DNA from: Salinibacterium sp. SWN248
GTDB taxonomy: Bacteria > Actinomycetota > Actinomycetes > Actinomycetales > Microbacteriaceae
Assembly: GCF_015864575.1 (NCBI RefSeq)
Contig: NZ_JADYWW010000002.1
Coordinates: 62,001-126,000, forward strand
Reading direction: 5' to 3'
Length of the DNA stretch: 64,000 nucleotides
This document shows, one piece after another, positions 14,029-30,220 of the stretch; the stretch's first letter is position 1; each line of letters opens with the position of its first letter. The notes under the pieces are model-generated. The model made no database searches. It saw only the letters and a program-made list of their open reading frames with translations, and was not told where the DNA came from. A program made the translations under genes and the position numbers.

Positions 14029-14219
14029 TATTCGACGATTCGGATGGCCTGCATCGGGCACACATCAACAGCAGCTTCAATGTTGTCGCGCTCCGAGTCT
14101 GGCGCTTCAGCCACGTACTCGAGCTTGTCGTCGTCGTTGAGCTTGAAGTTGTCAGGTGCCTCAAACACGCACTGGCCGTAGTGCTGGCACTGGTTCATGT
14201 CGACTTCGATTTTGATCAT
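14028..14219 (-). CDS. 3Fe-4S ferredoxin of the cytochrome P450 type
   Basis: The 63-residue acidic protein has the cluster pattern CQHYGQC (Cys11 and Cys17, with Tyr in the position that would be the fourth ligand of a 4Fe-4S cluster) and a distal CP pair in VDVCPMQAI. This is the layout of the small ferredoxins that donate electrons to actinobacterial class I P450s. The ATG overlaps the upstream hydrolase stop as ATGA and its TAG overlaps the reductase GTG. A P450 gene only a few kilobases away on the other side of the MarR regulator makes it the likely partner. Confidence 0.92.
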   Translation of the reverse strand: MIKIEVDMNQCQHYGQCVFEAPDNFKLNDDDKLEYVAEAPDSERDNIEAAVDVCPMQAIRIVE

Positions 14220-15094
14220 CGCTTTTCCTCAACTTTCGACGGGTAGAGATCTTTCGACGGAGTTCGAATGCCTCGGAACTCCCAGTCGCCACCCATTGCT
14301 GTCGACATTACCTCTTCGCTCTCGGTCGGCTGCGCTCCCACGTCGGTGCGGATCGCAGTCGGGCCCGTAACGATACGGTTCGTGAGCTTGCCCAGGCCTT
14401 CAACTTCGACCTCAACAACGTCGCCAGGCTGAACCGGACGCGAGAACGCGGGCGTTCCCGAGAACAGCATGTCGCCGGGGCTCAACGTGATCGTGCGCGC
14501 GATGTCGGCCACGAGGTAGTTCATGTCCCACTCCATGTTGTCGGTGCTGTCGTCTTGCTTGACCTCACCGTTCACAATGGTGCGCAACTGCTTGCCGCGG
14601 AAATCCCAGTCGGTCACGAGACCGGGGCCCACGGGAGCGAGTGTGTCGCTGCCCTTCACTCGAAGCATGGAACCGGCATCCGTGTCGCGGAAATCGTGCA
14701 GACCGTAGTCGTTACCGATCGAGTAACCGGCGATGTAGTCGCTGGCCTGGTCAGGCGACACGTTGCGGCAGGTGCGGCCGATCACAATGACGATTTCGCC
14801 TTCGAAGTTCAACCACTTGCAGCCCTCGGGGCGCACGACATCACCCTTGTGGGTGTTGAGCGCGGTGACCGGCTTCTGAAAGTAGGTCGGAGCTGCGGGC
14901 AGCTTGGTCATGAACTCTTCGGTGCGGCTGGCGTAGTTCAAGTGCACGGCAATGATCTTGCTCGGCTCGGTCGGCGGCAAGTGGATTGCCTCGTCGACAC
15001 CAACCTCGCGGCCATCGCCGGCGACGAGAACATCGCCGTGACGCGTTACCTGCGTCGGGTAGCCATCAAGAAGTACTCTGCGGAACTCAGTCAC
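14216..15094 (-). CDS. fumarylacetoacetate hydrolase family enzyme (HpaG/HpcE-like isomerase/decarboxylase or hydratase)
   Basis: The 292-residue protein has the FAH fold. The carboxylate triad for the divalent metal is visible in the segment FEGEIVIVIGR...GNDYGLHDFRD, and KPVTALNTHKGD and GDMLFSGTPAFSRPVQPGDVVEVEVEGLG are typical. In homoprotocatechuate degradation, FAH-family HpaG isomerises and decarboxylates the ring-cleavage product after oxidation. The position directly after the extradiol dioxygenase supports such a role. GTG 15094 overlaps the upstream stop by 8 bp and begins the natural MTEFRRVLLDG; an ATG at 15109 is possible. The exact reaction is inferred from neighbours. Confidence 0.82.
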   Translation of the reverse strand: MTEFRRVLLDGYPTQVTRHGDVLVAGDGREVGVDEAIHLPPTEPSKIIAVHLNYASRTEEFMTKLPAAPTYFQKPVTALNTHKGDVVRPEGCKWLNFEGEIVIVIGRTCRNVSPDQASDYIAGYSIGNDYGLHDFRDTDAGSMLRVKGSDTLAPVGPGLVTDWDFRGKQLRTIVNGEVKQDDSTDNMEWDMNYLVADIARTITLSPGDMLFSGTPAFSRPVQPGDVVEVEVEGLGKLTNRIVTGPTAIRTDVGAQPTESEEVMSTAMGGDWEFRGIRTPSKDLYPSKVEEKR

Positions 15095-15998
15095 GAGAAA
15101 GGACCACATCCTTTGCTGCCGGGAAGCCGCCTTCGGGCTTCGGGAACCAGACGTGCACCTGACCGGTGCCGATCGAATTTTCGTACTCGCTGTACATCAC
15201 GCCGGGAGCAGTGCAGGCTTCTTCACCGATCGCACCGGCAGTCATCAGCCAGTGGCCAAACATGGCCTCGGGGCGCACCTTCTGGAACGCGGGCATGGTT
15301 TCCAATACCTGAGCGTGGTCGCCAGCCTTGAACCAGTCGAGACGTTCGTAATCTGCCTCGCGGGCAGCATCCGAGAAAATGTGGGCCGGATCGGCCATCT
15401 CGTGCTTGCGCAGATCGCGCAGCTTGTAGAACGTGTGCGATAGAGCACCCGATGCCAGCAGGATGACGCGGCGGTCGCTCTTGGCGATCGCTTCGCCAAT
15501 GGCGCGACCGGCACGGAGGAAGTCTTCGTCGGTAGCGGTCTGGCAGATCGAGACGCTGACCCACTTCTTGTCAGGCAGGCCCTTGCCGAGGTACTCCCAC
15601 AGGTTGATCGTGGCGTACATGATCGGCAAGTACTCGTCGTCGATCGGAGTGATCCACGTGCCGTTCTTTTCGGCTTGCTCCCCCATGAGCTTTGCGAGCT
15701 CGGGGTCACCAATGAAGTCATACGGCACACCGCTCATGCCGCGGGGCAGTTCTTCTGACGTGAACTTGCCGTGACGACGCTCGTGCGCGGTGACGACGAA
15801 TTCAACCGTGGTCGCCCAGTGGCTGTCGAGCACAACAACAGTGTCGTAATCATCATTCTCGAAGTAGTCCTTGCGGAGTCGTTCGAGGCCTTCAACGAGC
15901 GTTGAATCTTTGCCCTCATTGAGTTCCATGCGGATCTCTTGGGGCAACATGATCGTAGGTACGTGGGCGATCAGCCCAGCGCCAACAACTTCTCCCAT
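15087..15998 (-). CDS. class III extradiol ring-cleavage dioxygenase (3,4-dihydroxyphenylacetate 2,3-dioxygenase-like)
   Basis: The 303-residue protein is a LigB-fold dioxygenase using a non-haem Fe(II) site. Matches to the HpaD pattern run along its length: IAHVPTIML near the N-terminus (His ligand), VVVLDSHW (second His), TSEELPRGM, GDPELAKLM, LASGALSHTF with the catalytic-region His, and GTGQVHVWFP at the end. The expected reaction is proximal cleavage of homoprotocatechuate or a related catechol. The ATG at 15998 has GGAAGGA 6 nt upstream, itself overlapping the stop of the aldehyde dehydrogenase gene, which argues against the longer frame from 16013. The aromatic substrate has not been proved. 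Confidence 0.88.
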   Translation of the reverse strand: MGEVVGAGLIAHVPTIMLPQEIRMELNEGKDSTLVEGLERLRKDYFENDDYDTVVVLDSHWATTVEFVVTAHERRHGKFTSEELPRGMSGVPYDFIGDPELAKLMGEQAEKNGTWITPIDDEYLPIMYATINLWEYLGKGLPDKKWVSVSICQTATDEDFLRAGRAIGEAIAKSDRRVILLASGALSHTFYKLRDLRKHEMADPAHIFSDAAREADYERLDWFKAGDHAQVLETMPAFQKVRPEAMFGHWLMTAGAIGEEACTAPGVMYSEYENSIGTGQVHVWFPKPEGGFPAAKDVVLSRD

Positions 15999-16000
15999 GA

Positions 16001-17464
16001 CTATTCCTTCCATCCGTTAGGTGCGAACACCGTGTTCTTAACATCTGCGTAGAAATCGAACGACCAGGTGCCGCCCTCACGGCCAACACCCGACTTCTTG
16101 GAGCCGCCGAACGGTGCGCGCAAGTCGCGCACGAAGAAGCAGTTGACCCAGATCGTGCCGGCGACAAGCTGCTTGGCGATCACGTCGGCGTGCTCGCGGT
16201 TGCCTGCGACGAGGATGGCGGCGAGACCGAATTCGGTTCCGTTGGCCATCGCGACAAGTTCTTCGTCGGTCGTGAAGGTTTGCATTGTCAGCACCGGCCC
16301 GAAGACCTCCTGAGTGACAATTTCGCTTCCAAGCGCAGGGTTCTTGACGAGCGTTGGCGTGAAATAGAGGCCGCCGAGTTCAGCGTTTGGCCCACCGCCG
16401 AAGAGGATGTCTGCTCCGCCCTCCTTGGCGCGATCGACGAATCCCTTGATCCGCTCGAAGTGCACGCGATGAACCTGCGGCCCGATATCGGTCTCGAGGT
16501 CGCGAGGGTCACCCTGACGCAGGGTCTCGACCTTCGCTTGGAATGCTGCGGCAAAGGCATCCGCAATGTTCTCGTGAACGAGGATGCGCGTGCCCGAGAG
16601 ACAGACCTGACCAGCGTTGTCGTACTGCTCAACCGCGAGCGTCGCAGCGAGTTCGAGGTCGGCATCTTCCATGACGATGCAGGGGCTCTTGCCCCCGAGC
16701 TCGAAGCTGCAGGGGGTGAGGTTGTCGGCGGCGGCGCGAGCGATCGACTTGGCCGTCGGCACCGAACCGGTGAACGAGATACGGCTGAGGTCGGGGTGCT
16801 CCACGAGCGAGGCACCCGCTTCTTTTCCATAACCCTGAACCACGTTGAACACACCGGCGGGCAATCCCGCTTCGGCAGTAATGTCGGCGAAGAGGGATGC
16901 CGTGAGCGGCGTCCATTCGGCCGGCTTCAGTACGACAGTGTCGCCTGCGGCGAGCGCCGGAGCGATCTTCCACGTGGCGAGCATGAGGGGCGCGTTCCAG
17001 GGCGTGATGAGCGCGGCAACTCCCGAAGGATCCCACGAGACGTGGTTGTTGTGGCCGCGGGTTTCGAAGTCCGGATGCCCGAGGTCGTTCACAAGGTAGT
17101 CAGCAAAGAACCTAAAGTTGTGGGCCACTCGCGGCATGACACCGCGCAGGTGGCTGCGCAGGAGCGCACCGTTGTCCATCGTCTCGACGTTTGCGAGGTC
17201 GCTGACGCGCTCCTCAACGAGGTCGGCGATCTTGTGCATGATTGCTGCACGATCCTGGGGACTGGTGGCAGCCCAGCCGGGGAATGCTGCGCGGGCGGCG
17301 GCGACGGCCAAGTCAACTTCGCGTTGACCTCCGCGAGAGATTTCACCGAGTGCACTGGCATCGATCGGTGACACGTTGGTGAAGGTGTCGTCTGAAGCGA
17401 CGCGTTCTCCGTTGATGAAGTGCCGGGTGTCGACGGTCACTCCTGCTACTTGAACGTTGGTCAT
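16001..17464 (-). CDS. NAD(P)-dependent aldehyde dehydrogenase (5-carboxymethyl-2-hydroxymuconate-semialdehyde dehydrogenase-like)
   Basis: The 487-residue protein has the full ALDH core: TPWNAPLMLATWKIAPALAAG, VVLKPAEWTP, FTGSVPTAKSI (NAD site), the general base Glu in FELGGKSPC and the nucleophile Cys in DNAGQVCLSGTR. It is the promoter-proximal gene of a five-gene coupled operon, followed by the extradiol dioxygenase. In the homoprotocatechuate pathway this step oxidises the ring-fission semialdehyde. An alternative is oxidation of an arylacetaldehyde before ring cleavage. A strong palindrome 29 nt upstream of the ATG is a likely repressor site. Confidence 0.88.
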   Translation of the reverse strand: MTNVQVAGVTVDTRHFINGERVASDDTFTNVSPIDASALGEISRGGQREVDLAVAAARAAFPGWAATSPQDRAAIMHKIADLVEERVSDLANVETMDNGALLRSHLRGVMPRVAHNFRFFADYLVNDLGHPDFETRGHNNHVSWDPSGVAALITPWNAPLMLATWKIAPALAAGDTVVLKPAEWTPLTASLFADITAEAGLPAGVFNVVQGYGKEAGASLVEHPDLSRISFTGSVPTAKSIARAAADNLTPCSFELGGKSPCIVMEDADLELAATLAVEQYDNAGQVCLSGTRILVHENIADAFAAAFQAKVETLRQGDPRDLETDIGPQVHRVHFERIKGFVDRAKEGGADILFGGGPNAELGGLYFTPTLVKNPALGSEIVTQEVFGPVLTMQTFTTDEELVAMANGTEFGLAAILVAGNREHADVIAKQLVAGTIWVNCFFVRDLRAPFGGSKKSGVGREGGTWSFDFYADVKNTVFAPNGWKE

Positions 17465-17492: not shown

Positions 17493-17518
17493 TAAGTCAT
17501 TCGGATACTAATGACTTA
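17493..17518. promoter_or_regulatory. palindromic operator A before the ring-cleavage operon
   Basis: Arms TAAGTCATT and AATGACTTA are perfect 9-bp inverted repeats around CGGATACT, so the inner part reads TCATTCG-GATA-CTAATGA. The reverse-strand TAGTAT inside it could be the -10 hexamer of the aldehyde dehydrogenase promoter, which would put the site in position for repression. It shares its GATA/TATC core with the other three sites described here. Confidence 0.7.
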
Positions 17519-17584
17519 CCTTAGCGAGTGATTCGACCCCAAACAAGAGTTCAGAGCATCCGGCCACTAAAAAATCGGTGCGGG

Positions 17585-18085
17585 TTAGTTCTTGGGCTCC
17601 ACGCCAGCCGTGATCACGCGCAGCATCTCGGCCAGCTCTTCCCTCTTGCTGGGATCAACCGGGCCAGTGACGGCCTGCTCTTGCAGGTTGAACGCCGGAA
17701 AGAGTTCCGTCATGAGTTCGCGCCCACGATCAGTGAGCTTCACGACGACGAGTCGACCATCGGTCTCGCTGCGTTCGCGTGTGAGCCAGCCACGGCGCTC
17801 AAGAGTCGTGAGCACTCCGGTCAGAGTCGCCTTAGAGAAGCCTCCCTCAAGCGCGATCTGGCGAGTTTCAATCGGTTCCCAGATCCACGTGACCCAGAGA
17901 ACGACAAACGCTGTCCAGGAGAGATTGTGCTCCGACAACACGGTGCGCTCGAAGTGATTACGCACGGCGTTTGCCGCCCGAAAAAGGTTCGATGCGACGG
18001 CCATTGCGGAGTAGTCCAGCGGAAGGCCGCCGACTCTCGCTTGTACTTGGCGTTCAGTCTCAGTCAGTGTGTGTGGTCCGGCCAC
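17585..18085 (-). CDS. MarR-family transcriptional regulator
   Basis: The 166-residue protein has a winged helix typical of MarR: the recognition region IALEGGFSKATLTGVLTTLERRGWLTRERSETDGRLVVVKLTDRGREL lies near residues 75-125 and includes the DxR wing tip. MarR proteins bind palindromes as dimers and release DNA on binding a phenolic or other ligand. The gene lies between operator A and operator B and reads in the same direction as the ring-cleavage operon. The GTG start has AAGGGGA about 6 nt upstream. It is the natural candidate for control of the surrounding pathway, including through the distant sites near 25.5-25.6 kb. That link is inferred. Confidence 0.9.
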   Translation of the reverse strand: MAGPHTLTETERQVQARVGGLPLDYSAMAVASNLFRAANAVRNHFERTVLSEHNLSWTAFVVLWVTWIWEPIETRQIALEGGFSKATLTGVLTTLERRGWLTRERSETDGRLVVVKLTDRGRELMTELFPAFNLQEQAVTGPVDPSKREELAEMLRVITAGVEPKN

Positions 18086-18189
18086 GGAGGGTCCCCTTGC
18101 TCGCGTTTAGCTGCGGTTACTCTATCTAACCCCCGGCGTTCAGAAAGTTTTTGGGGACATCGCTCACAGAAACGCGCCGATGTGGCATA

Positions 18190-18207
18190 TTGTTTGTATC
18201 CAAACAA
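18190..18207. promoter_or_regulatory. palindromic operator B before the cytochrome P450
   Basis: TTGTTTG-TATC-CAAACAA is a perfect 7-bp inverted repeat with a 4-nt spacer, 16 nt before the P450 TTG start. Spacer and arm layout match operators A, C and D. It lies in the divergent gap between marR and the P450, so it could also mediate autoregulation of marR. Confidence 0.7.
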
Positions 18208-18223
18208 CCCACGGAGGATTGAG

Positions 18224-19477
18224 TTGACTTCAATGGCGAACGTCACCCTGGCAGACCTAGATCTGTTCGAGAACGGCACACCCTGGCACGTATTCGACAA
18301 GCTTCGAACTGACGCCCCCGTGCACTGGTCAGAAGAGCCAGCCCCCAACCATGGGTTCTGGTCGCTCACCCGTTATCACGACATCGTTTCCGTATTGCGA
18401 GACACTGAAACGTTCTCGAGCGAACGCGGCACCGTCAACCTCGAAGAGCTCGACGCTGACCAAATCGAAGCTCGCAAGTCAATGCTCGAAACGGATGGCG
18501 TGCGTCACCGGGCGCTCCGTCGCCTTATGCAGGGTGAGTTCACGCCCCGCGCCGTCGCCGGGTACGAGACGTTCCTCCGCGGACTCACCGCCAGCACTCT
18601 TGACGCTGCCTTTGCGAACCCCGAGTTCGAATTCGTCGACCAGGTGGCCGCCGACTTCCCCATCCGGGTTCTCGCCAAGATGCTCGACGTGCCCGACACC
18701 GACATTTACAAGCTCATTGACTGGGGCAACCGGATGATCGGAAACGACGATCCGGAACACGCCGACGTACTGGCAAGCTCCGCCGAGAGCGAAGAGTTCC
18801 GACTGCTGCCCTTCCGCTCCCCCGCAGCTCGGGAGGTTTTCGAGTACGGCAACGACCTCGCCAACCAGCGTCGCGGCAAGGACGGCAACGACCTCGTGTC
18901 GCGCCTCGTCAACCAGACGCCGATGGACGGCCAAGCGCTCAGCGAGCGCGACTTCAATAGCTACTTTCTGCTGCTCGTCGTCGCCGGCAACGAGACCACA
19001 CGCCACACCATCACGCACTCCATGAACTACCTCATGGATAACCCCGACCAGCTTGAGCTACTCCAAGAAAAACCAGAACTCATCCCGTGGGCGGTCGAAG
19101 AGTTCTTGCGCATGGCCAGCCCGGTTTACCACTTCCGTCGCACCGCGACCAAGGACACCGAGATCAACGGTCAAGCGATCAAGGAAGGCCAGAAAGTTGT
19201 CACGTGGTTCGCCGCCGGCAACCGCGACCCCGAGATCTTTGAAGATCCTTACAAGATGGATGTCACCCGCAACCCGAACGAGCACATGGCGTTCGGTCGC
19301 GGTGGCCCGCACATGTGTCTCGGAAACTCACTGGCACGCCTTGAGATCCGTATTATGTTCGAGAACCTGTTGCCCCGTATCTCGGGCATGACGAAGCTGG
19401 CTGAACCTGACCGCTTGCGCAGCAATTTCGTCAACGGAATCAAACGACTCCCAGTACGCGTCGAATTAGCAAAGTAG
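18224..19477 (+). CDS. cytochrome P450 (bacterial class I)
   Basis: The 417-residue haem monooxygenase has the oxygen-activation helix motif AGNETTRH, the K-helix ExxR in EEFLR, and the haem loop FGRGGPHMCLGNSLARLE with the thiolate Cys365. It needs separate redox partners, and a P450-type ferredoxin and reductase gene pair lies 4 kb away on the opposite strand. GGAGG at 18213-18217 is spaced 6 nt from a TTG at 18224; ATG at 18233 (spacing about 15 nt) is the alternative. The frame continues far upstream only as the antisense of marR. A substrate feeding the adjacent catechol ring-cleavage genes, such as an aryl methyl ether or a phenol, is plausible but unproved. Confidence 0.92.
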   Translation: MTSMANVTLADLDLFENGTPWHVFDKLRTDAPVHWSEEPAPNHGFWSLTRYHDIVSVLRDTETFSSERGTVNLEELDADQIEARKSMLETDGVRHRALRRLMQGEFTPRAVAGYETFLRGLTASTLDAAFANPEFEFVDQVAADFPIRVLAKMLDVPDTDIYKLIDWGNRMIGNDDPEHADVLASSAESEEFRLLPFRSPAAREVFEYGNDLANQRRGKDGNDLVSRLVNQTPMDGQALSERDFNSYFLLLVVAGNETTRHTITHSMNYLMDNPDQLELLQEKPELIPWAVEEFLRMASPVYHFRRTATKDTEINGQAIKEGQKVVTWFAAGNRDPEIFEDPYKMDVTRNPNEHMAFGRGGPHMCLGNSLARLEIRIMFENLLPRISGMTKLAEPDRLRSNFVNGIKRLPVRVELAK

Positions 19478-19498
19478 GCACATGAGCGAGGTAGTTGC

Positions 19499-20869
19499 AT
19501 GAGCGAAGTTCGGCCGCAGGGCAGACCCCACGCTGTCTGGGGCGATGAGACTGAAGTCGTTCAGCTCGCCATTGACTGGACCTCTAAGAGAATGGTTCGC
19601 GAGACCGACCCGTTTTCGACAGCGCGACCCGCGGCCGATTTGGCGGCAGAGGTTGGTGAAGCGATCCGCCCCAAAGGCATCGGCGGCGCAGAGGCACTGC
19701 GTATTTTTGACGAAATTCTTGAGCCGGCAACTCGTGCTCAGGATGACCCGTTGAACCTCGCTTATATTGCGGCCGCACCGACTCGCGCGGCAGTTGCGTT
19801 TGACCTCGTCACCAGTTCTGCTAACATTTTTGGTGGCCTCTGGGAGTCGGGTGCTGGCGCGATCTTTGCCGAAAACCAAGCCCTGCAGTGGATCATCGGG
19901 CTGCTCGGTTGGCCAGAGACCGCTGGCGGCACTTTTGTTTCCGGCGGCACCTCGGGCAACCTTTCAGCGCTCATGACCGCGCGAGAAACAGCCAAGACTC
20001 GTCGCGGTGGCCGCCCGGCTGGGGGCTGGCAACTGGCCTACACTTCCAACGCTCACTCGTCGATCAACTCGGCAGCGAGAGCACTCGACGTTGACAGGGT
20101 TGACGTGCCCATCGATGACCGTGGGCACATGACCGGGGCAGCGCTGCGCGCCGTTCTCGAACAGAACCCGAACGTGTTTGCGGTGGTCGCATCCGCTGGA
20201 ACAACTAACGAGGGCCTTGTCGACGACCTGGCCGATATCGCCGACGTCTGCGAAGAGTTTGGTGTTTGGATGCACGTTGACGGCGCCTACGGTGGCGCAG
20301 GGCTCGCCGCCCCGAGCATCCGCCCCCTCTTTGACGGCATCGAACGAGCAGACAGCTTTATCGTCGACCCGCATAAGTGGCTCTTCGCCCCCTACGACTG
20401 CTGTGCGCTGATCTATCGCGAACCCCAGCTGGCGCGGGCCGTGCACTCTCAGCACGCCAGCTATTTGGATGCCATTGACCGCAACGAGTCGAACCCCAGC
20501 GAGCTCGCCCTGCACCTCTCGCGGCGCGTGCGAGGCCTTCCACTGTGGTTCAGCCTCGCCACCCACGGCACCGATAAGTATCGGGATGCGGTCGAAGCAT
20601 CGGTGTCGACCGCTCGCGAAGTCGCCCGCGCAATCGACGCGACCGACTACCTCGAACTCGTGCGTGAGCCCGAACTCTCAGTGCTGCTGTTTGTGCGGAG
20701 CGGGTGGACGGCCGAACAGTACTCGGCGTGGTCGAAGCAAGTGGCGCACGACGGTGTCATCCTGTGCGTACCGACGAAATGGCGTGGTCAGACCGTGTTG
20801 CGGCTCGCTTTCGTAAATCCTGATAGCGAGGCAGCCAAGGTCATGGCGGCGTTGGAGACGCTGCGGTAG
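19499..20869 (+). CDS. PLP-dependent decarboxylase of the aromatic-L-amino-acid/glutamate decarboxylase group
   Basis: The 456-residue protein is a fold-type I group II decarboxylase. Lys293 in SFIVDPHKWLFAPYDC is the Schiff-base residue, MHVDGAYGG supplies the Asp that contacts the pyridine nitrogen, and TSNAHSSINSAAR carries the His that stacks on the ring. Members decarboxylate DOPA, tyrosine, tryptophan or related amino acids. It follows the P450 by 21 bp and is probably co-transcribed. The start is duplicated: a hexapeptide ORF at 19482-19502 (MSEVVA) ends in a TGA that overlaps the ATG. An aromatic amine product would suit the nearby gamma-glutamyl ligase and catechol pathway. Confidence 0.86.
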   Translation: MSEVRPQGRPHAVWGDETEVVQLAIDWTSKRMVRETDPFSTARPAADLAAEVGEAIRPKGIGGAEALRIFDEILEPATRAQDDPLNLAYIAAAPTRAAVAFDLVTSSANIFGGLWESGAGAIFAENQALQWIIGLLGWPETAGGTFVSGGTSGNLSALMTARETAKTRRGGRPAGGWQLAYTSNAHSSINSAARALDVDRVDVPIDDRGHMTGAALRAVLEQNPNVFAVVASAGTTNEGLVDDLADIADVCEEFGVWMHVDGAYGGAGLAAPSIRPLFDGIERADSFIVDPHKWLFAPYDCCALIYREPQLARAVHSQHASYLDAIDRNESNPSELALHLSRRVRGLPLWFSLATHGTDKYRDAVEASVSTAREVARAIDATDYLELVREPELSVLLFVRSGWTAEQYSAWSKQVAHDGVILCVPTKWRGQTVLRLAFVNPDSEAAKVMAALETLR

Positions 20870-20947
20870 CAAGCGCCGTGACGGAGCCCCAATCACGGCA
20901 CACCGCCGTCGGTGCGAAGCCTGGCGGTACAATGCGACCCTGACTGC

Positions 20948-21889
20948 TCAACCTGTAAAGCTTCTTACCGTGGCTGCGATCATTATTGCGATCTGCGCTA
21001 TGCCCCAGACGACCGGAATACCGATGACTATCGAAGTCACCCATACGGCTATCTTCAGGGGCGGAGCCATCCCCCGTTTCAGCCTCGCGCCAGCAGCGCT
21101 GACTTGGTTGTGCGCCATTCGATCGCTGACCCCAGCACCAACAGAGCCGCTGACCGCCTCGCCACCCAGGTTATGCCGTGAATCGGCATAGTGGACGGTG
21201 CGAGCGAGCGTCTTTGCCCCAACAGTTTCGATGATGCCAAATAGCGTGGCCATCGTTTGCGGATTCGACAGATCGAAACCACCGAACTGGTAGAGAAACA
21301 TCCAATCGTCGATGATCTCGGCATCCACCGAAACGGCTTCGTCGATCATCAACGCCATCAGGTCGGGGGTGAACACGTACAGCGCATCCCGCTCGTAGCC
21401 TTTGGGGCAGTACATCGTGAAGTACTCGTCAAAGTTGCCCTCAAGCGAGATGCGCTGTTTGCTCGAAAAACCGACGGGAAGCTGAGTCGCGCCGAGAAAG
21501 TTGTTCTTATTCGAGTCAAGCACGAGGTGAGGCATCCGACGCTGCAGCTTGATAGCGACGAATCCGTAGCCATAGCTGAACTCAGTCTTGCCATCATTCA
21601 CCGTGTAGCCGTAGTTGCCGATATCGAGGAAATTTTCGCCTCGACGAAGGATGTGCTGCGATACGCCTCGGTTGTAACCCAAGCCGAAAATCATTCCGGG
21701 GTAGTTAACGGCGCCGCGGTGAGCGCCAAATTCAAAGCCGTTGAGGGCCGCAAACAGGCTCAACCGCAGTCGCTGCTCAGCGCTACCGGCAGGCTGGACC
21801 GAACCGTCTTTCGCTCGCTCACGGAAGTCCTGGATTTCGGCTTCGCTGAGCTGCGCATCCAGCGCACCTAAGTCGACAATCGATGTCAT
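20948..21889 (-). CDS. conserved hypothetical protein with one C-terminal membrane span
   Basis: The 313-residue protein has an N-terminal acidic helix, a long soluble domain (LDIGNYGYTVNDGKTEFSYG, VLDSNKNNFLGA, and LYVFTPDLMALMIDEAVSVDAEIIDDWMFLY) and a single hydrophobic segment near residues 278-303. The soluble part looks like a recurrent actinobacterial family of unknown function in which the LMALMIDEA...DDWMF stretch is conserved. I cannot name a domain. It is convergent with the decarboxylase and divergent from the cupin gene. No pathway role is evident. Confidence 0.72.
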   Translation of the reverse strand: MTSIVDLGALDAQLSEAEIQDFRERAKDGSVQPAGSAEQRLRLSLFAALNGFEFGAHRGAVNYPGMIFGLGYNRGVSQHILRRGENFLDIGNYGYTVNDGKTEFSYGYGFVAIKLQRRMPHLVLDSNKNNFLGATQLPVGFSSKQRISLEGNFDEYFTMYCPKGYERDALYVFTPDLMALMIDEAVSVDAEIIDDWMFLYQFGGFDLSNPQTMATLFGIIETVGAKTLARTVHYADSRHNLGGEAVSGSVGAGVSDRMAHNQVSAAGARLKRGMAPPLKIAVWVTSIVIGIPVVWGIAQIAIMIAATVRSFTG

Positions 21890-22108
21890 CTGTATCGTTT
21901 CCCCAGCATCTGGTCGTTGAACCCAATGAATTGAAGATTACTTGCGGTTCGCGACTGCACCCCAGCGGCTGGCCGCGAAGGTGCAGCGCGCTGAGCACGA
22001 AACGAGAACGGACGCACGGTCCGCACGCTTGAGGTCCACGAAAGGGCACGACTGCGGTAGCTTTGCCCCACGGCGATGATGCCGACCGTGCACGAAAGGC
22101 GTGACGAC

Positions 22109-22444
22109 ATGAACACAACTGTTTCTTTGACCGAGCTTGCCGCATCGGAACTGGCGAGCGCTCTTGCCTCGAACAACGGCCGCAGCGCCGTGACGGTGTG
22201 CGGCGGGCGAGATGCCCAGCTCAGACAAACGGTGATGGCGTTGCGGGCTGGTGAAGGGCTCTCCGAGCACTCCAGCCCCGGCGAAGCAACACTGCAGGTA
22301 CTCGTCGGACACATCGCACTGCGGTCCGCCGACGAATCGTGGGAGGGCAAGCCGGGCGATCTGCTGCCAATTCCCACTGAGATCCATGCCGTGGATGCTC
22401 TTGAGGACTCCGTGATTTTGCTCACGGTTATTAAAGCTCAGTAG
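22109..22444 (+). CDS. small cupin-fold protein
   Basis: The 111-residue protein has a single cupin barrel pattern (MALRAGEGLSEHSSPGEATLQVLVGHIALRS...EGKPGDLLPIPTEIHAVDALEDSVILLTVI). The first cupin motif keeps a His and Glu (EHSSPGEATL) and the second keeps a His in TEIHAVDA, so metal binding is possible. The ATG at 22109 has GAAAGG about 9 nt upstream; the frame also offers ATG 22076. It sits among the amidotransferase and ligase genes, but its direct role is unknown. Confidence 0.8.
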   Translation: MNTTVSLTELAASELASALASNNGRSAVTVCGGRDAQLRQTVMALRAGEGLSEHSSPGEATLQVLVGHIALRSADESWEGKPGDLLPIPTEIHAVDALEDSVILLTVIKAQ

Positions 22445-22468
22445 CGGTCAGCGACGCCCTCGCCGCCG

Positions 22469-23176
22469 CTAGACGAGCTTGGCTACTCGCTCCAAGAAAG
22501 CATCCACGAGGGCTGCCGTGCGTTCAGCGGCACGGCCCTCTTCGTCGCGGGTTAGAGCGATCATGATCTCGGGGTTCTGCCCGCTCGCGATCACTTCGTT
22601 GATGCCGCCCTGATCGAGCCAGCCTTCTAAAATTGCCGAGTTGAGTTCGGGATGAAACTGCACGGCCAAGCTGCGGCCGTAGGTGAATGCTTGAGGTGCG
22701 ATCGGGTTGCGAGCGATTTCGACGGCGCCTTCGGGCATCGTCCACTGGTCATAGTGAAACTGAAACCAGGGTCCGTTGGAGACGAGCGAGGTATCGTCGC
22801 TGTAAATCGTTTTCCAACCGATTTCTGATTGGGCTCCACGAGCGACTGTGCCGCCCAGCGCCCGTGCGATCAGCTGGCCGCCGAAGCAGATACCCAGCAC
22901 CGGGATGTCCGCCTCGATGGTGGAGCGCACCCACTCGAGCTCTGGCTGCAACCAGCGGCCGATGCACGCGTCATCCCACGCACCCCACGGCGCTCCCATG
23001 GGGATCACGAGGTCGTACTGCGACGCATCCGGAAACTCAAAATCAACGTTCGGGTTGTCGAAATTCTCCTCGCTGACGACCATGATCTCGTCGATCTCAA
23101 AGCCGCGTTCCCGCAGGCGATCCCCCACTGGGCCGCTCGCGGTGACGTGATCGTGTTGCACCAGGAGAGCTCTCAT
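22469..23176 (-). CDS. class I glutamine amidotransferase-like hydrolase
   Basis: The 235-residue protein is a stand-alone GATase with nucleophile Cys in VLGICFGGQLIARALGG and the His-x-Glu pair in VQFHPELNSAIL. Unlike synthase-fused domains it has no partner, which is the situation for gamma-glutamyl amide hydrolases. It is divergent from a glutamine-synthetase-like ligase across a 110-bp gap, the same ligase/hydrolase pairing that is found in gamma-glutamylation pathways. ATG 23176 with AAAGG 8 nt upstream is chosen over an upstream in-frame codon at 23221. The substrate is not known. Confidence 0.85.
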   Translation of the reverse strand: MRALLVQHDHVTASGPVGDRLRERGFEIDEIMVVSEENFDNPNVDFEFPDASQYDLVIPMGAPWGAWDDACIGRWLQPELEWVRSTIEADIPVLGICFGGQLIARALGGTVARGAQSEIGWKTIYSDDTSLVSNGPWFQFHYDQWTMPEGAVEIARNPIAPQAFTYGRSLAVQFHPELNSAILEGWLDQGGINEVIASGQNPEIMIALTRDEEGRAAERTAALVDAFLERVAKLV

Positions 23177-23247
23177 CTGTGTACCTTTCAGGTAAATTTC
23201 TGGCGATGAGTGGACAGCCACACCGCTGTGTGCCTTAGTATCGCACT

Positions 23248-23269
23248 AATCGTTCAGTGCCGAACGATT
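23248..23269. promoter_or_regulatory. perfect inverted repeat in the divergent amidotransferase/ligase promoter
   Basis: AATCGTTC and GAACGATT are exact 8-bp arms with a 6-nt spacer, ending 17 nt before the ligase ATG. The sequence differs from the MarR-type sites, so another regulator is implied. TTAG and CTAA arms at 23235-23249 partly overlap it. Confidence 0.6.
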
Positions 23270-23286
23270 TATTTTTCGGAGGAAGA

Positions 23287-24633
23287 ATGACTCTCGACAT
23301 AGCAGCACTTCAAGCAGACTTGCAGGCAAAAGGGATCGATGTTCTGCGCCTGATTTTCCCGGATGTGCTGGGAATCACCCGCTCAAAAGATCTTCTCGTC
23401 AGCCAATTACATCGCACGAAGTCTCCGCTGTTCTGCCAAGGCGTGTGGGTAACAACCACCGGCGGGGGCGTGCTCGACGGAAACGACATCATGTCATCCG
23501 GCCTTCCCGACCTCCTCACCCAGATCGACCCCGAGACCCTCACGATGATGCCGTGGGAGCCCGGCGTTGCCCTCGTCATCGGCGATGCATTCAACCCCGA
23601 CCACAGCCCCAGCGACGTCGCACCGCGTTCGGTGCTGCAGAACGTGATCGCAGAATATGCCGCCCTCGGCCTCACCCCGACCGTCGGCCCCGAACTTGAG
23701 TTCTACATCGCCAACTACGACGAAGACAACGGGTGGAGCCGCAGCCTCAGCCGCACCGGCCGCGTCTACACGACCGGCGAGCACGTCGACCCCGGTGGGC
23801 AATTCTTGAATCTCATGCGCATGCTCGACGGCATGGACATCGGCGTCTTCGCCGGCAACCACGAATTCAGCCCCTCGCAATACGAAATCAATCTCTGGCA
23901 CAGCGAGGCACTGGATGCCGCCGACCGCACTTTCCTCTTCAAGACCGCCGTGCGCGACATCGTCGCCCGCACCGGCAAGCACGCCCTCTTCGTGGGCAAG
24001 CCCTGGGACGACGAAGGCGGCAGCGGATTCCACTTGCACTTCTCCGTCGTCGACAGTGACGGCAACAACATCATGTCGGATGGCGGCGCTGGGCTCTCAG
24101 AGACCGCCAACCACATGATCGGTGGAATCCTCGCCCACGCCGGATCACTCGCAGCACTCTCGAACCCCACCGTTAACGCCTACAAGCGCCTCGGCCCGGA
24201 CACCCTGGCTCCCTACCGCGCCAACTGGGGCCACGATAACCGCAGCGCGATGCTGCGGGTACCGCCTGAGCGCGGCGCCGGCACGCGACTGGAAGTCCGC
24301 CTCGGCGACCCGGCAGCGAACCCGTATCTGCTGATCGCATCCACTCTGGCTGCTGGCCTTGATGGCATCAAGCGCAAGCTCACGGCACCCGCAGCAGTCG
24401 CGGGCTGGGCCTACGAAGACGAGTCGGCACCGATCTTGCCGATGACCCTCAGCGCCGCTCTGGACGCTCTCGACGCCGACACGGTGATGCGCGAGACCAT
24501 GGGCAGCACTGTGATTGATGTCTTCAGCGTGCTCAAGCGCGATGAAGTGATGCGCTACGAAGACTCTGTCGCCGACAAGACGACGCGCGACATCAGCCAG
24601 TGGGAGATCGACGAATACTTCGCCGACTACTAA
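23287..24633 (+). CDS. glutamine-synthetase-family ligase (gamma-glutamyl-amine synthetase-like)
   Basis: The 448-residue protein has the GS catalytic fold: PELEFYI (metal-binding Glu), GNHEFSPSQYEI, GSGFHLHFSV (His/Glu region), the ATP/glutamate-side NPTVNAYKRLGP and NRSAMLRVP. A GlnA-type adenylylation loop is not apparent. Paralogues (PuuA, GlnA3, GlnA4) join glutamate to polyamines or ethanolamine instead of ammonia. Its neighbours are an amidotransferase-type hydrolase, a permease and an amino acid decarboxylase, which supports amine conjugation rather than nitrogen assimilation. ATG 23287 follows GGAGGAAGA closely; an in-frame GTG at 23257 would lie inside the operator palindrome. Confidence 0.88.
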   Translation: MTLDIAALQADLQAKGIDVLRLIFPDVLGITRSKDLLVSQLHRTKSPLFCQGVWVTTTGGGVLDGNDIMSSGLPDLLTQIDPETLTMMPWEPGVALVIGDAFNPDHSPSDVAPRSVLQNVIAEYAALGLTPTVGPELEFYIANYDEDNGWSRSLSRTGRVYTTGEHVDPGGQFLNLMRMLDGMDIGVFAGNHEFSPSQYEINLWHSEALDAADRTFLFKTAVRDIVARTGKHALFVGKPWDDEGGSGFHLHFSVVDSDGNNIMSDGGAGLSETANHMIGGILAHAGSLAALSNPTVNAYKRLGPDTLAPYRANWGHDNRSAMLRVPPERGAGTRLEVRLGDPAANPYLLIASTLAAGLDGIKRKLTAPAAVAGWAYEDESAPILPMTLSAALDALDADTVMRETMGSTVIDVFSVLKRDEVMRYEDSVADKTTRDISQWEIDEYFADY

Positions 24634-24656
24634 GTCGGTGAACCGCTAGACACACG

Positions 24657-24689
24657 AAAAGCCCCGCCGAAGTTCTCGGCGGGGCTTTT
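24657..24689. terminator. bidirectional intrinsic terminator
   Basis: A 13-bp stem AAAAGCCCCGCCG / CGGCGGGGCTTTT with a 7-nt loop lies between the convergent ligase and acetoacetate-decarboxylase-family genes. The A and T tracts on the two sides suit termination in both directions. Confidence 0.93.
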
Positions 24690-24706
24690 CTGCGTGGTGA
24701 AGGAAC

Positions 24707-25516
24707 TTAGATCGCGTTCGAGCGGTCTTCTACGAGCTCGCCACCGTTGAACGTGACTCCGATCTCGCGGTAGTAGCCGCCGAGAATCTCTTGCACGGGC
24801 AGGATCGAGTGCAGCTCATCCCATTGCGAATCTCCGAGGTGAAGCTCGGCGTCGCCCTTCCAGGTCTCGCCAATCTCGACGTCGGTGCCGCCCATGGTGA
24901 TGAGCTGATCGAGGGACATGCCGGCATCCTTGCTGATGGATGGCATGAACCGGCTGTGCAGCATTTTGTGGCCGTTGACGAAGCCGTTGCTTTCAGCAGG
25001 CTCACGCAGCGTGACGACGGCCGAGGCGAGGCGGTGGTCGTACGCCGCGATGGAGGCGCCGAACTGGCCACCGTTCTCGAGCTTGGGGGTTGCTTTGCCC
25101 GTGTTGAAGACGCGAGTAACGGCGATGTTGCCGAGCTTCTTGGGGTAGCCCTGGAACCAGCCGCGGCCGATCGCGAAGTCTTTATTGACCCAGATGGCGA
25201 CACAGCGGCTGTAGACGATGCCCTTGTGGGAGCAGCGCACCACCATGAAGGCTTCGAGGTATTGAGCGCGAACAGGGTCGAGCAGTTCGAGGCCGCCAGT
25301 GCTGCAGGACTGCCAGTCGGCCCACACGATGGCAACAGCGCCAGGCTGTTCAGGGGCGAGGTCAATATCGTCAGGGAGGATCGCACGTACGTTGGCTGGA
25401 TCGGTCAGATACTCGACAGTGAGCAGCGTTCCCGAGTAGTACCAGGGCATCTTCGGCACGAGCGAACTTGACCCTTGAGGGGTGAGTGGAGGAAGAAATC
25501 CGTTGAGTTCGGTCAT
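24707..25516 (-). CDS. acetoacetate decarboxylase superfamily protein
   Basis: The 269-residue protein has the ADC fold signature. GWFQGYPKKLGNI near residues 120-130 carries the adjacent lysines, the first of which would form the Schiff base in true acetoacetate decarboxylase. The N-terminal PWYYSGTLLTVEYLTDPANVRAILPDDIDL is typical. The superfamily also includes enzymes that process other keto acids and aldol products, so decarboxylation of acetoacetate itself is not certain. An operator of the MarR type lies 25 nt before the ATG, linking it to the ring-cleavage regulon and suggesting a role late in the same pathway, for instance on an oxo-acid intermediate. Confidence 0.85.
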   Translation of the reverse strand: MTELNGFLPPLTPQGSSSLVPKMPWYYSGTLLTVEYLTDPANVRAILPDDIDLAPEQPGAVAIVWADWQSCSTGGLELLDPVRAQYLEAFMVVRCSHKGIVYSRCVAIWVNKDFAIGRGWFQGYPKKLGNIAVTRVFNTGKATPKLENGGQFGASIAAYDHRLASAVVTLREPAESNGFVNGHKMLHSRFMPSISKDAGMSLDQLITMGGTDVEIGETWKGDAELHLGDSQWDELHSILPVQEILGGYYREIGVTFNGGELVEDRSNAI

Positions 25517-25540
25517 GCGCCAGAGTGTAGCCCAAAACAG

Positions 25541-25552
25541 TTCGTATCCGAA
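25541..25552. promoter_or_regulatory. palindromic operator C before the acetoacetate-decarboxylase-family gene
   Basis: TTCG-TATC-CGAA has perfect 4-bp arms around the same TATC core as operator B. It starts 25 nt upstream of the reverse-strand ATG at 25516. Confidence 0.62.
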
Positions 25553-25609
25553 TGAATTTCCAGAAACCCTTGACTAAGTCACCCTGTCTTCGCCATTGTT
25601 GAACCCAAC

Positions 25610-25627
25610 TCGTTCGGATACGGACGA
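25610..25627. promoter_or_regulatory. palindromic operator D before the APC permease
   Basis: TCGTTCG-GATA-CGGACGA has 6 of 7 matching arm positions. It lies just downstream of a plausible promoter (TTGACT at 25570-25575, CATTGT at 25594-25599, 18-bp spacing) and 31 nt before the permease ATG, as expected for a repressor site. Confidence 0.65.
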
Positions 25628-25658
25628 CTTGATTTAGAACTCAACGAGGAGTTTCACT

Positions 25659-27155
25659 ATGGCGCTTGACCAAAAATCCCAGGAAAGCCCCGATCGGACC
25701 CTGCGCAAAGGGCGACTCGGTGTAATCGGAATCGTCTTCTTTGTCGTGGCCGCCGCCGCACCGCTGGTCGGAATGACCGGCGCCGTGCCCGTGGCCATCG
25801 TTCTCGGTAACGGTGCAGCCGCCCCCGGCGCGTACTTGTTTGCCGGCATCGTGCTTCTCCTGTTCAGCGTCGGTTACGCCGCGATGAGCCAACGCGTTAC
25901 CAATACCGGCGCCTTCTTCGCCTATGTCGGCCGCGGACTCGGGCGCAACGCCGGAATCGCCTCCTCGTTCGTGTCGATCCTCGCGTACCTCACCATCCAG
26001 CTCGCCATCTATGGCTTCTTCGGTGGCGTCATGGCCGGCCAGGTCGGACTTCTCCCCTGGTGGGCCTGGACGCTTCTCGCGTGGCTCGTCGTTACCGGCC
26101 TCTCGCTTGCTCGCGTGGACGTCGGCGCCAAGCTACTCGGTGTGCTCATGCTCGCCGAAGTCACCGTGCTTGTCATCGCAGCCGTGGCAATCCTCGCCGA
26201 TGGTGGCCCCGAGGGCCTCAACTGGGGTGCCTCCTTCTCCCCTGACCTGATTCTTGCTGGTGGCCTCGCAGGCTCCGCCGGTATCGCGTTCGCGTTCGCC
26301 TTCGCCTCCTTCATCGGCTTCGAAGCAACCGCCATCTACGGCGAAGAGAGCGTCAACCCGAAGCGTGCCGTACCGCGCGCTACCTACCTTGCTGTTGGCC
26401 TCATCACCGTACTGTTTGCCTTCACCGCTTTCGCCCTTGTCACCGGTATGGGCGCCTCGAACGTGATCGACCAGACGCTCGAACGTTCAGCCGGTCTCGA
26501 AGACCCGGCCGCTGTGCTCTTCACTCTGGCCAGCGAATACGTCGGACCATGGCTCGCCACGCTCATGAGCATCCTCGTGCTCTCGAGCCTGTTCGCCGGA
26601 CTGCTCGCATTCCAGAACGCCGCAAGCCGCTACCTCTTCGCCCTCGGCCGCGGTGGCGTGCTGGCGAGCTCGGTGGGAACCGTGAATGGTCGCGGAGCCC
26701 CCGGTCGTGCATCCATCATCGTGTCGATCATTAGCGGTGTTGTGATCGTGCTGTTCGCTGCGTTCCAGCTCGACCCCATCGGCAACATGTTCTTCTGGTT
26801 CAGTGGCCTCGCCGTGGTGGCGATCGTGCTGATCGAAGCGCTCGTCTGCGTGGCGATCATCCGCTTCTTCCTGATGAACAAGGGCACCGAGAACATCTTC
26901 GTGACGATGATCGCTCCGGTGCTGGCCTTCATCGGTCTCGTGCTGGCCGAGTACCTGCTGATGTCACGCTTCGGCCTGCTCGCCGGCGACCTCACGCTTG
27001 CTGCCGGAGTCGACCCGACCGTCACCGCCTTCGGACTCAACGCCTTCGGCTGGTTCCTCGTGCTGTCACCGTTCATCGCTCTCGTGATCGGCTACATCGT
27101 GTCGATGGTTCGCAAGGACCTCAACGAAGAACTGCTGCAGGATGTGATTTCTTAA
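25659..27155 (+). CDS. APC-family amino acid/amine permease
   Basis: The 498-residue membrane protein has about twelve to fourteen hydrophobic spans. The first begins at VIGIVFFVVAAAAPLVGMTGAVPVAIV, and the conserved span 6 region reads FASFIGFEATAIYGEESVNPKRAVPRATY, typical of APC transporters of the YveA/gamma-aminobutyrate branch. It should import an amino acid, amine or related compound in symport with protons. CGAGGAG lies about 7 nt before the ATG. With operator D upstream and a strong terminator downstream it is a single-gene unit of the proposed MarR regulon and a candidate importer for the pathway substrate. Confidence 0.9.
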   Translation: MALDQKSQESPDRTLRKGRLGVIGIVFFVVAAAAPLVGMTGAVPVAIVLGNGAAAPGAYLFAGIVLLLFSVGYAAMSQRVTNTGAFFAYVGRGLGRNAGIASSFVSILAYLTIQLAIYGFFGGVMAGQVGLLPWWAWTLLAWLVVTGLSLARVDVGAKLLGVLMLAEVTVLVIAAVAILADGGPEGLNWGASFSPDLILAGGLAGSAGIAFAFAFASFIGFEATAIYGEESVNPKRAVPRATYLAVGLITVLFAFTAFALVTGMGASNVIDQTLERSAGLEDPAAVLFTLASEYVGPWLATLMSILVLSSLFAGLLAFQNAASRYLFALGRGGVLASSVGTVNGRGAPGRASIIVSIISGVVIVLFAAFQLDPIGNMFFWFSGLAVVAIVLIEALVCVAIIRFFLMNKGTENIFVTMIAPVLAFIGLVLAEYLLMSRFGLLAGDLTLAAGVDPTVTAFGLNAFGWFLVLSPFIALVIGYIVSMVRKDLNEELLQDVIS

Positions 27156-28305: not shown

Positions 28306-28461
28306 ATGTCGAACACCACGGCCGAATGTCCCCTGTGCGAAAACTATGGTGCCCACGAACGCTCTGATAGCAATTGGTTCCGCTGTGCGCACTGCACCAC
28401 GTCGTGGGGGTGCCCCGCCGACATCCCTAAAGATGCCGACGGGGCTGTACAACTCAATTAG
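28306..28461 (+). CDS. small Cys-rich (zinc-ribbon-like) protein
   Basis: The 51-residue product has CPLC near residue 8 and CAHC near residue 27, spaced as in a zinc ribbon, plus one extra Cys in WGCPADIP. It resembles short actinobacterial zinc-ribbon proteins of unknown role. The ATG at 28306 is the natural start, although the ribosome binding site is weak and distant (GGGAG about 13 nt upstream). The last 4 bp overlap the convergent permease gene. Confidence 0.6.
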   Translation: MSNTTAECPLCENYGAHERSDSNWFRCAHCTTSWGCPADIPKDADGAVQLN

Positions 28462-30002
28462 CTCCGAGGTTCGTCCCGACCGTCAGCAGCGAGAAGTTCC
28501 TCCTCGACGGCACCGCCATACCCCTCCTTTTGAGGATCCCCGTGGAGCCCGCCAGAGATCGCGTATTCCTCTTCAGGCGAGAGCACGAGGCGCTTGCGAC
28601 CGTAGAGCCCGAAGATCGCAAGCATCACGATGTAGACCACAGCGATGGCCCCGATCGCCGGACGAGCGGGCTCGTTGATGAAGAAGCCGAAGAAGATCGC
28701 CAACGAAAGAACGCCGCCGATAATGGCTCCGGGAACACCCCAGGGGCTGCGGTAGGGGCGGTTTGCGTTCGGGTATTTCTTGCGCAAAATCAAGAACGAC
28801 ACCATCTGCAGCACGTAAGCAATAACAGCGCCCCACACCGCGATGTTCAAGACGATTGCACCCGCGACGCCATCTGCGCCGCCGAGGCTGTCAACGAGAA
28901 CCAGAGCGACGTAGCCGATAATTGCGCCCACTAAGAGCGCAACAGCGGGAGTCTGACGCTTGCCTGTGAGTGACAAGAATTTCGGGTAATAACCGGCGCG
29001 TGACAGTGAATACATGTTGCGTCCGTAAGCAAACATGATTCCCTGCAACGACGCGAAGAGCCCGATGAGCGCAAACAACGCGAGGGCCGCCGCTGCTTGG
29101 TCTCCGACGATCGCACGGAATCCATCGAGTAGGGGCTCTCCCGAAGTAGAAATCTCAGAAGCACCAACGATTCCAGTGTTGAGGAAGAGCACCAGAAGAC
29201 CCGTGATGATCAGCGTCGTGCGAGCGATCAACCCGGCCTTCGGGATGTCACGCACAGGGTTGTGAGCCTCTTCCGCAGCGAGCGGCAATTCTTCGATTCC
29301 CAAGAAGAACCACATGGCATAAGGAAGCGCGAAGAGAATCGGCACTATGCCATGAGGCAGGAAGGATGATTGCCCCGGATCGGCAGCGATGTTGAACAAG
29401 TTGTCCCAGCTGAAAAGACCGGAGAATGCTGCCATGACGGAGAAAACGAGCAGGATGGTGATCGAAACAATCGCCACGATGATCGCAAATTTGAATGAAA
29501 TCGCTGCGCCGGCCGAGTTCAGCCCGATGAACACGATGTACAGAATCAGCCACCACACTGGCGCCGGCAGCGAGAAGCCCAAGAGCTCGCTCGTAATGAA
29601 GTCGGCATATCCCGCTGAGAAGTAAACGATGACCGCCGTAGTAGCAACGTATTCAATCGTCTCAGCGAGCCCCGTTACGAAGCCACCCCACGGGCCCATT
29701 GCGGCACGAGCGAAGGAGTAAGCTCCGCCGGTGTGTGGCATGGCGGATGCCATTTCACCGATGCTGAAGATCATTCCGTAATACATAAAGATGAGCAGGG
29801 CGAAGGCGATCAGCATTCCGCCGAAGCCAGCGAACCCGATTCCGAAGTTCCAGCCGGAGAAGTCGCCCGAGATAACGGCTGCAACCGCGAGCCCCCACAG
29901 CCCCCAGATTCCCGCCGTGCGTTTGAGTGTGCGTTTCTCGAAATACCCGGCCGCAGCCGTCGTGTATTTCACCCCGGAGACGTTCAGTGTGTCTTTGGAC
30001 AT
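28458..30002 (-). CDS. APC-superfamily permease, ethanolamine permease-like
   Basis: The 514-residue protein has an N-terminus GVKYTTAAAGYFEKRTLKRTAGIWGLW and a conserved MPHTGGAYSFARAAMGPWGG segment, both features of the ethanolamine permease (Eat/EutP-type) branch of the APC family. About twelve hydrophobic spans follow, with FFLGIEELPLAAEEAHNPVRDIPKA near residue 235. Import of ethanolamine or a similar small amine is expected. It is divergent from a gamma-glutamyl-ligase operon across a 218-bp promoter region, the arrangement expected for transporter and catabolic genes under shared control. Confidence 0.87.
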   Translation of the reverse strand: MSKDTLNVSGVKYTTAAAGYFEKRTLKRTAGIWGLWGLAVAAVISGDFSGWNFGIGFAGFGGMLIAFALLIFMYYGMIFSIGEMASAMPHTGGAYSFARAAMGPWGGFVTGLAETIEYVATTAVIVYFSAGYADFITSELLGFSLPAPVWWLILYIVFIGLNSAGAAISFKFAIIVAIVSITILLVFSVMAAFSGLFSWDNLFNIAADPGQSSFLPHGIVPILFALPYAMWFFLGIEELPLAAEEAHNPVRDIPKAGLIARTTLIITGLLVLFLNTGIVGASEISTSGEPLLDGFRAIVGDQAAAALALFALIGLFASLQGIMFAYGRNMYSLSRAGYYPKFLSLTGKRQTPAVALLVGAIIGYVALVLVDSLGGADGVAGAIVLNIAVWGAVIAYVLQMVSFLILRKKYPNANRPYRSPWGVPGAIIGGVLSLAIFFGFFINEPARPAIGAIAVVYIVMLAIFGLYGRKRLVLSPEEEYAISGGLHGDPQKEGYGGAVEEELLAADGRDEPRS

Positions 30003-30195: not shown

Positions 30196-30220
30196 TGACT
30201 TGCTTAATGAGGAGAAGTTA

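Follow-up and report, generated by a model that had tools for sequence, protein, structure and literature searches.

In a 64-kb stretch of DNA from the actinobacterium Salinibacterium sp. SWN248 (hereafter the window, meaning the whole stretch that was analyzed), we found five copies of one type of palindrome, which stand in front of a ring-cleavage operon, a cytochrome P450 gene, and genes coding for a glutamine-synthetase (GS)-like enzyme, an acetoacetate-decarboxylase (ADC)-like enzyme and an APC-family permease. We hold these palindromes to be the operators of a single MarR-type repressor, encoded at 17585-18085, with a probability of about 0.87. This reading is carried by direct support for the sites themselves, for their conservation before the same genes, for their position relative to the promoters and for the co-occurrence of the MarR gene with them. 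The MarR protein encoded in the cluster is the presumed binder of these candidate operators; it would act as a repressor released by a ligand, for which a catechol or a phenolic compound is a candidate.

Operator-like palindromes in the window

The original prediction, made from the sequence alone, had placed one palindrome type, with short and partly degenerate arms, 16-31 nucleotides (nt) before four genes or operons. Reading the sequence directly, we find all four palindromes at the places noted: site 1 with the arms TAAGTCATT (17493-17501) and AATGACTTA (17510-17518), site 2 as TTGTTTG-TATC-CAAACAA (18190-18207), site 3 as TTCG-TATC-CGAA (25541-25552) and site 4 as TCGTTCG-GATA-CGGACGA (25610-25627). 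When aligned on the strand that reads GGATAC, they become TCATTCGGATACTAATGA, TTGTTTGGATACAAACAA, TCATTCGGATACGAACTG and TCGTTCGGATACGGACGA, i.e., a single 18-bp operator of roughly the form TCGTTCG-NATN-CGAACGA, which bears out the claim of one palindrome type. GGATAC is present nine times on the two strands of the 64 kb, and four of these nine occurrences belong to sites 1-4. The arms are indeed short and partly degenerate: an inverted-repeat scan with arms of at least 6 recovers only sites 1 and 2, the arms of sites 3 and 4 being shorter or mismatched. The original prediction had missed a fifth, weaker site, AA-TCGTTCAGTGCCGAACGA-TT, which combines perfect arms with a divergent center (AGTGCC).

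The five sites, given here as 24-mers with their 18-bp cores, are distributed as follows. Operator 1 (17494-17517, core 17497-17514, minus strand), the best of the window at 30.8 bits, lies upstream of the HpaE-HpaD-FAH-ferredoxin-reductase operon, with a gap of 32 nt from the core to the HpaE start codon (ATG 17464). Operator 2 (18187-18210, core 18190-18207, plus strand; 25.7 bits) occupies the gap between the MarR and P450 genes, 16 nt before the P450 start (TTG 18224). Operators 3 (25535-25558, core 25538-25555, minus strand; 24.1 bits) and 4 (25607-25630, core 25610-25627, plus strand; 22.7 bits) are respectively upstream of the ADC-like gene (21 nt to ATG 25516) and the APC permease gene (31 nt to ATG 25659). 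Operator 5 (23247-23270, core 23250-23267, plus strand), the fifth in the window at 21.7 bits, lies in the gap between the GS-like and amidotransferase genes, 19 nt from the GS-like start.

These scores come from a 24-bp matrix built from 148 site picks in relatives, in which a few picks from the ADC-APC gap serve both genes. With it the five sites take the first five ranks of the window, the sixth place reaches 5.75 bits and the highest score over 100 mononucleotide shuffles of the window is 15.9 bits; the window sites exceed what chance produces. A sequence-only model (R1), made from 55 relatives' sites, returned six rows from the 3.05-Mb genome at E ≤ 10, all of them the four sites of the original prediction (150 of 711 candidates being scored at first look). 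Loose patterns were as rich in matches in their reversed controls (38 against 42, and 86 against 78) and are uninformative; hence, only stringent matches were counted.

Other places in the same genome, scored at selected positions, drop to 14.8-18.3 bits once the flanks are included in the 24-bp matrix, below all five window sites. We excluded from the regulon C2:282476 (18.3 bits, within a 690-residue open reading frame, ORF), C2:27146 (16.6 bits, within a 331-residue ORF), C2:437588 (16.0 bits, 77 nt upstream of a 562-residue ORF and inside a 134-residue one) and, with the least certainty, C1:557210 (14.8 bits, 163 nt upstream of a DctP-type gene); C1:1529598 (12.0) and C1:1903477 (7.95) were discarded for their low scores. 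The place at C1:557210-557233 (L108 7211), weak with the 24-bp matrix and strong in its core (21.9 bits), is found with identical letters in a second Salinibacterium genome (L127 2682).

Conservation of the sites and co-occurrence with the MarR gene

The presumed binder is a MarR-family protein of 166 amino acids encoded on the minus strand, with 49.4 bits to Pfam MarR (gathering cut-off 24.6). Its structure model (mean pLDDT 91.6) displays the winged-helix MarR fold, with the best fold match to MftR in complex with operator DNA (TM score 0.82) and with PcaV, HucR and MexR among the matches listed; within the helix-turn-helix region, S84-L88 do not vary across 26 aligned sequences. It provides the sole DNA-binding domain match among the scanned cluster genes, two of whose ORFs (20948-21889 and 22076-22444) have no Pfam match at all.

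A search for orthologous MarR genes gave 74 loci, one of which, an Acidobacteria match (L107) with 27% identity and no cluster genes, was discarded as spurious, so that 73 remained in the species-level set of genomes. Of these, 44 were kept as having MarR proteins less than 90% identical to each other, and removal of the window-like representative left 43 independent loci, to which we applied a symmetric matrix made from the four window sites; the per-gene counts omit loci that lack the gene or have too short an upstream region. At 12 bits, a site is present upstream of HpaE in 40 of 41 loci (39 at 16 bits), of the P450 in 38 of 40 (33), of the ADC-like gene in 26 of 30 (24), of the APC gene in 22 of 25 (20) and of the GS-like gene in 22 of 36 (12 of 36 at 16 bits). 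Some loci have a single site in the divergent ADC-APC gap, which was counted for both genes, and the counts for the MarR and amidotransferase genes mostly reflect the P450 and GS sites. The genes internal to the operon have none (HpaD 0/39, FAH 0/37 and ferredoxin reductase 0/31; 0/107 together), and the rate in shuffled upstream regions is at most 0.012. Conserved sites thus precede orthologous genes and are missing before operon-internal ones, as would be the case in a regulon of a single regulator. The loci nearest to the window, with MarR proteins 95-98% identical, come from four Salinibacterium records and the marine actinobacterium PHSC20C1.

Of the 150 family genomes sampled, 18 encode the MarR (E ≤ 1e-20) and 15, all of them among those 18, have an exact match to TYRTTHGKATMCDAAYRA; none of the 132 MarR-less genomes has it, and the reversed pattern matched one of the 150. 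As the genomes are related, we give counts and no p-value. With at most one mismatch allowed, the genomes of 16 relatives hold 70 such places, 58 of which are at the MarR locus, and here too the reversed pattern matched once. In Microcella alkaliphila (L053), the MarR locus showed no APC gene, and an APC homolog with 61% identity to that of the window is encoded on another contig, with a 24.3-bit site directly upstream. The original prediction that a MarR regulon joins the P450 and ring-cleavage genes is thus backed by where the sites lie, by their occurrence together with the MarR gene and by a permease gene that is found elsewhere and still has its site.

Some Aurantimicrobium genomes have further sites away from the MarR cluster. 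In two of them, a strong site (22.6 and 26.9 bits) is located about 90 nt upstream of the gene for cytochrome bd oxidase subunit I (L112 6255-6278 and L120 2379-2402), and the same two genomes have a 24-25-bit site between a small ORF and a gene for an FTR1-family iron permease (L121 2446-2469 and L122 1869-1892; the permease of L121 is named by likeness). A further Aurantimicrobium has a site of 27.7 bits, 17 nt upstream of a zinc-binding dehydrogenase gene (L123 2325-2348).

Promoter layout, proposed mechanism and alternative explanations

The position of the sites relative to promoter-like elements suggests how they might work. In 32 of 41 HpaE, 25 of 40 P450 and 23 of 24 GS-like loci, a TANNNT box begins 3-12 nt upstream of the 24-mer, such that the site would cover the transcription start. 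At the ADC-like gene, the box lies 3′ of the site and a start codon follows 4-9 nt after the box in 27 of 27 loci, a layout of the leaderless type that puts the site close to the -35 region, while an upstream TTGAC element is seen in 19 of the 24 APC rows listed. These layouts fit a repressor that blocks transcription. Hence, we propose that a MarR dimer binds each 18-bp site and would thereby block RNA polymerase at five promoters, namely those of the HpaE-HpaD-FAH-ferredoxin-reductase unit, the P450 gene (with the decarboxylase gene), the GS-like gene, the ADC-like gene and the APC permease gene; the divergent amidotransferase gene is perhaps controlled along with the GS-like gene. A metabolite of the pathway would release the MarR, and uptake, gamma-glutamylation, hydroxylation by the P450 and meta-cleavage would be turned on together. 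A shared switch of this kind would be reasonable, since the P450 belongs to one transcription unit and its probable partners, a ferredoxin and a reductase encoded distally in the ring-cleavage operon, to another.

Could the palindromes instead be operators of another regulator, with the neighboring MarR controlling something else? The Aurantimicrobium sites that precede unrelated genes, such as those for cytochrome bd oxidase subunit I and the FTR1-family permease, could reflect such a regulator. We nevertheless consider this unlikely, given that all 15 motif-positive genomes in the family hold this MarR and all 132 genomes without it lack the motif, and that no other DNA-binding domain was matched among the scanned cluster genes. 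Moreover, the block at 28.4-35.2 kb, which includes a gene for a GntR regulator, has none of the top five places in the window (0.45 bits for the best one listed in the block). Less probable still is that the palindromes are RNA hairpins acting as attenuators or 5′-leader structures. They are able to pair as hairpins, and the leader of site 4, which was called terminator-like, folds beyond its shuffles (z -2.48); but the leaders of sites 1, 2 and 5 give z values of 0.22, -0.24 and -1.53, and it is on these leader folding results that we rejected hairpins as the explanation. In addition, the ADC site precedes its -10-like box throughout the 27 loci and would, therefore, not be transcribed, and the half-sites are conserved across five different promoters in their sequence, beyond mere pairing. 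That the sites are shared simply through recent inheritance of the whole block is the least probable of the alternatives. Gene order is widely conserved across the 73 loci, as such inheritance would have it; however, the 18-bp cores are 69-81% identical between independent loci, depending on the gene, against 25-34% for the flanking non-coding DNA (in rows selected by score, which raises the value for the cores), and the cores are clearly better conserved than the flanks. Three loci with a different gene order (L081, L088 and L094) still have sites upstream of several of their cluster genes, as does the Microcella permease gene on its separate contig.

Several observations weigh against the reading of the five palindromes as operators of this one MarR. 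At the level of promoters, the APC gene has a TANNNT box in just 1 of 23 loci, and a strict sigma-70 scan found no promoters in the two window regions scanned. There is no separate site at the MarR start in the window; a second site in the P450-MarR gap is present in 12 of 38 relatives. Of the 18 family genomes with the MarR, 3 have no exact match to the motif, and 12 of the 70 places in the 16 relatives' genomes are outside the MarR locus. The picks in relatives were made with the window matrix, so that the forward and reverse tests, and the reverse matrix itself, are only partly independent; the gene positions of the sites are independent. Site 5 is the most vulnerable: it scores 8.4 bits with model R1 (E 0.27 in the search of the 64-kb window), does not appear in the whole-genome list at E ≤ 10 from the first look, and with the first window matrix, in which site 2 was one base off register, reached 12.8 against 12.5 for the next place. 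When only the 18-bp core is scored, C1:557213 (21.9) comes out above sites 4 (21.3), 3 (17.1) and 5 (14.8), C2:282479 (19.5) above sites 3 and 5, and two further places (16.1 each) above site 5; the core score alone, therefore, cannot separate the sites of the regulon. The expectation in the original prediction that a genome scan would give few other hits is accordingly borne out by the model search and by the 24-bp matrix, with its best other place found at 18.3 bits, and is qualified by the core alone, where up to four other places surpass the weakest sites.

Cluster genes, related systems and a possible pathway

The operon limits and the order of pathway steps that we use here are predictions. 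The ring-cleavage operon on the minus strand begins with an HpaE-like aldehyde dehydrogenase gene (16001-17464; TIGR02299, 510.6 bits against a cut-off of 638.35), followed by those for an HpaD-like LigB-type extradiol dioxygenase (15087-16013; TIGR02298, 129 bits against 315.95; Pfam LigB; nearest solved chain 8iq8) and an FAH-family HpaG-like isomerase/decarboxylase (14216-15109; TIGR02303, 200.2 bits against 276.4; nearest solved chain 1gtt). In sequence these enzymes resemble the homoprotocatechuate set, with HpaD-, HpaE- and HpaG-type scores, including those of the relatives, below the curated equivalog cut-offs. The operon continues with the two probable redox partners of the P450: a single-cluster ferredoxin of 63 amino acids (14028-14219; Pfam Fer4_13, 48.1 bits), which lies between the FAH and reductase genes in 55 of the 56 loci holding both, and a flavin adenine dinucleotide (FAD)-dependent ferredoxin reductase (12802-14061; Pfam Pyr_redox_2 and Reductase_C). 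In many relatives, a peptidase C26 (gamma-glutamyl hydrolase-like) gene is located between the MarR and HpaE genes (e.g., L092 10492-11190), which the window lacks.

On the plus strand, the CYP125/CYP124-related P450 (18224-19477; Pfam p450; nearest solved chains CYP125MRCA, CYP125 and CYP124) is followed after 21 nt by a pyridoxal-phosphate (PLP)-dependent decarboxylase (19499-20869; Pfam Pyridoxal_deC; nearest solved chains including DOPA decarboxylase), which adjoins the P450 gene in the loci nearest to the window. The GS-like protein (23287-24633, plus strand; Pfam Gln-synt_C) is a possible gamma-glutamyl ligase, with GlnA and GGputSyn scores of 280 and 243 bits, both below their cut-offs; divergent from it is a class I glutamine amidotransferase-like gene (22469-23221, minus strand; Pfam GATase, 45.8 bits). 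By tblastn over the 73 loci, several of which end at a contig edge, 63 loci have the GS-like gene and 65 the amidotransferase-like gene. The cluster is completed by the MppR-like member of the ADC family (24707-25516, minus strand; TIGR04460, 174.1 bits against 380; nearest solved chains 6eej/4zbo and MppR 4jm3) and the APC-family permease (25659-27155, plus strand; Pfam AA_permease). A separate block at 28458-35241 encodes an ethanolamine-permease-like protein (344 bits, cut-off 382), a second GS-like protein, a peptidase C26 hydrolase, an aldehyde dehydrogenase and a short-chain dehydrogenase along with the GntR regulator; it has no operator of the type described here and resembles a pathway for gamma-glutamyl-ethanolamide or polyamines.

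That MarR regulators govern aromatic catabolism is well established, and GS-like and amidotransferase genes have roles in the aniline pathway. Homology to such gamma-glutamylation clusters makes it possible that the GS-like ligase acts on an aromatic amine. The nearest known system in role is that of HpaR, the MarR-family repressor of the homoprotocatechuate (hpa-meta) operon in Yersinia as in E. coli W, which shares with the window the family of the regulator, HpaE/HpaD/HpaG-type targets and an inverted-repeat operator with a 4-bp spacer, present there in one copy near the transcription start (PMC7180172). It differs in its operator, TTAA-N4-TTAA (PMC7180172) against TTCG-N4-CGAA in the window, with TTCG- or TTTG-type half-sites; furthermore, the window MarR scores 55.1 bits with the HpaR equivalog TIGR02337 (cut-off 121.2), and the window has five separate promoters, including those of the P450, permease and GS-like genes. 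That a MarR can have a P450 gene as a target is already seen with PchR (YvmB) of Bacillus subtilis. This MarR-like repressor has a 14-bp palindrome in front of several units, including one with a P450 gene, although PchR governs pulcherriminic acid biosynthesis and not ring cleavage (PMC4992311). Among actinobacteria, CouR of Rhodococcus jostii is a MarR repressor of aromatic catabolism released by a catabolite of its pathway, but it controls p-hydroxycinnamate genes and its ligand is p-coumaroyl-CoA (PMC4737184). AesR of Corynebacterium glutamicum, also an actinobacterial MarR, has inverted repeats overlapping promoters, but these are two side-by-side repeats of the ACTATG-N3-CATAGT type, and it represses its own and one divergent operon (PMC13413800). 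Aromatic amine degradation clusters parallel the window in having GS-like and amidotransferase-like genes in an aromatic pathway (PMC11335346, PMC4539516), to which the window adds a P450 and a LigB-type dioxygenase. Thus, the kind of system is already known, and for this MarR regulon itself our literature search found no description, which is no proof of absence.

The gene content would be consistent with a route from an aromatic amine or amino acid into meta-cleavage. Aldolase-dehydratase activity is found among relatives of the ADC-family enzyme. One might tentatively conceive of an undescribed pathway of Microbacteriaceae, doubtful as a whole, in which an amine, either made by the PLP decarboxylase in Salinibacterium-type strains or imported by the APC permease, receives a gamma-glutamyl group from the GS-like enzyme, is hydroxylated by the CYP125-related P450 with a ferredoxin and reductase of its own, and undergoes ring cleavage by the HpaD-like dioxygenase, with an ADC-family aldolase-dehydratase replacing HpaI and one MarR sensing an intermediate.

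What had been a guess from four look-alike palindromes has become a regulon with good support, and its borders tell which genes belong to one pathway: the permease, the GS-like enzyme, the P450 with its redox partners, the ring-cleavage enzymes and the ADC-family enzyme. For a cluster found at 73 loci in the species-level set, this provides a defined DNA target, together with a list of genes from which its substrate may be sought, and it makes a candidate MarR-operator pair available for inducer screening.

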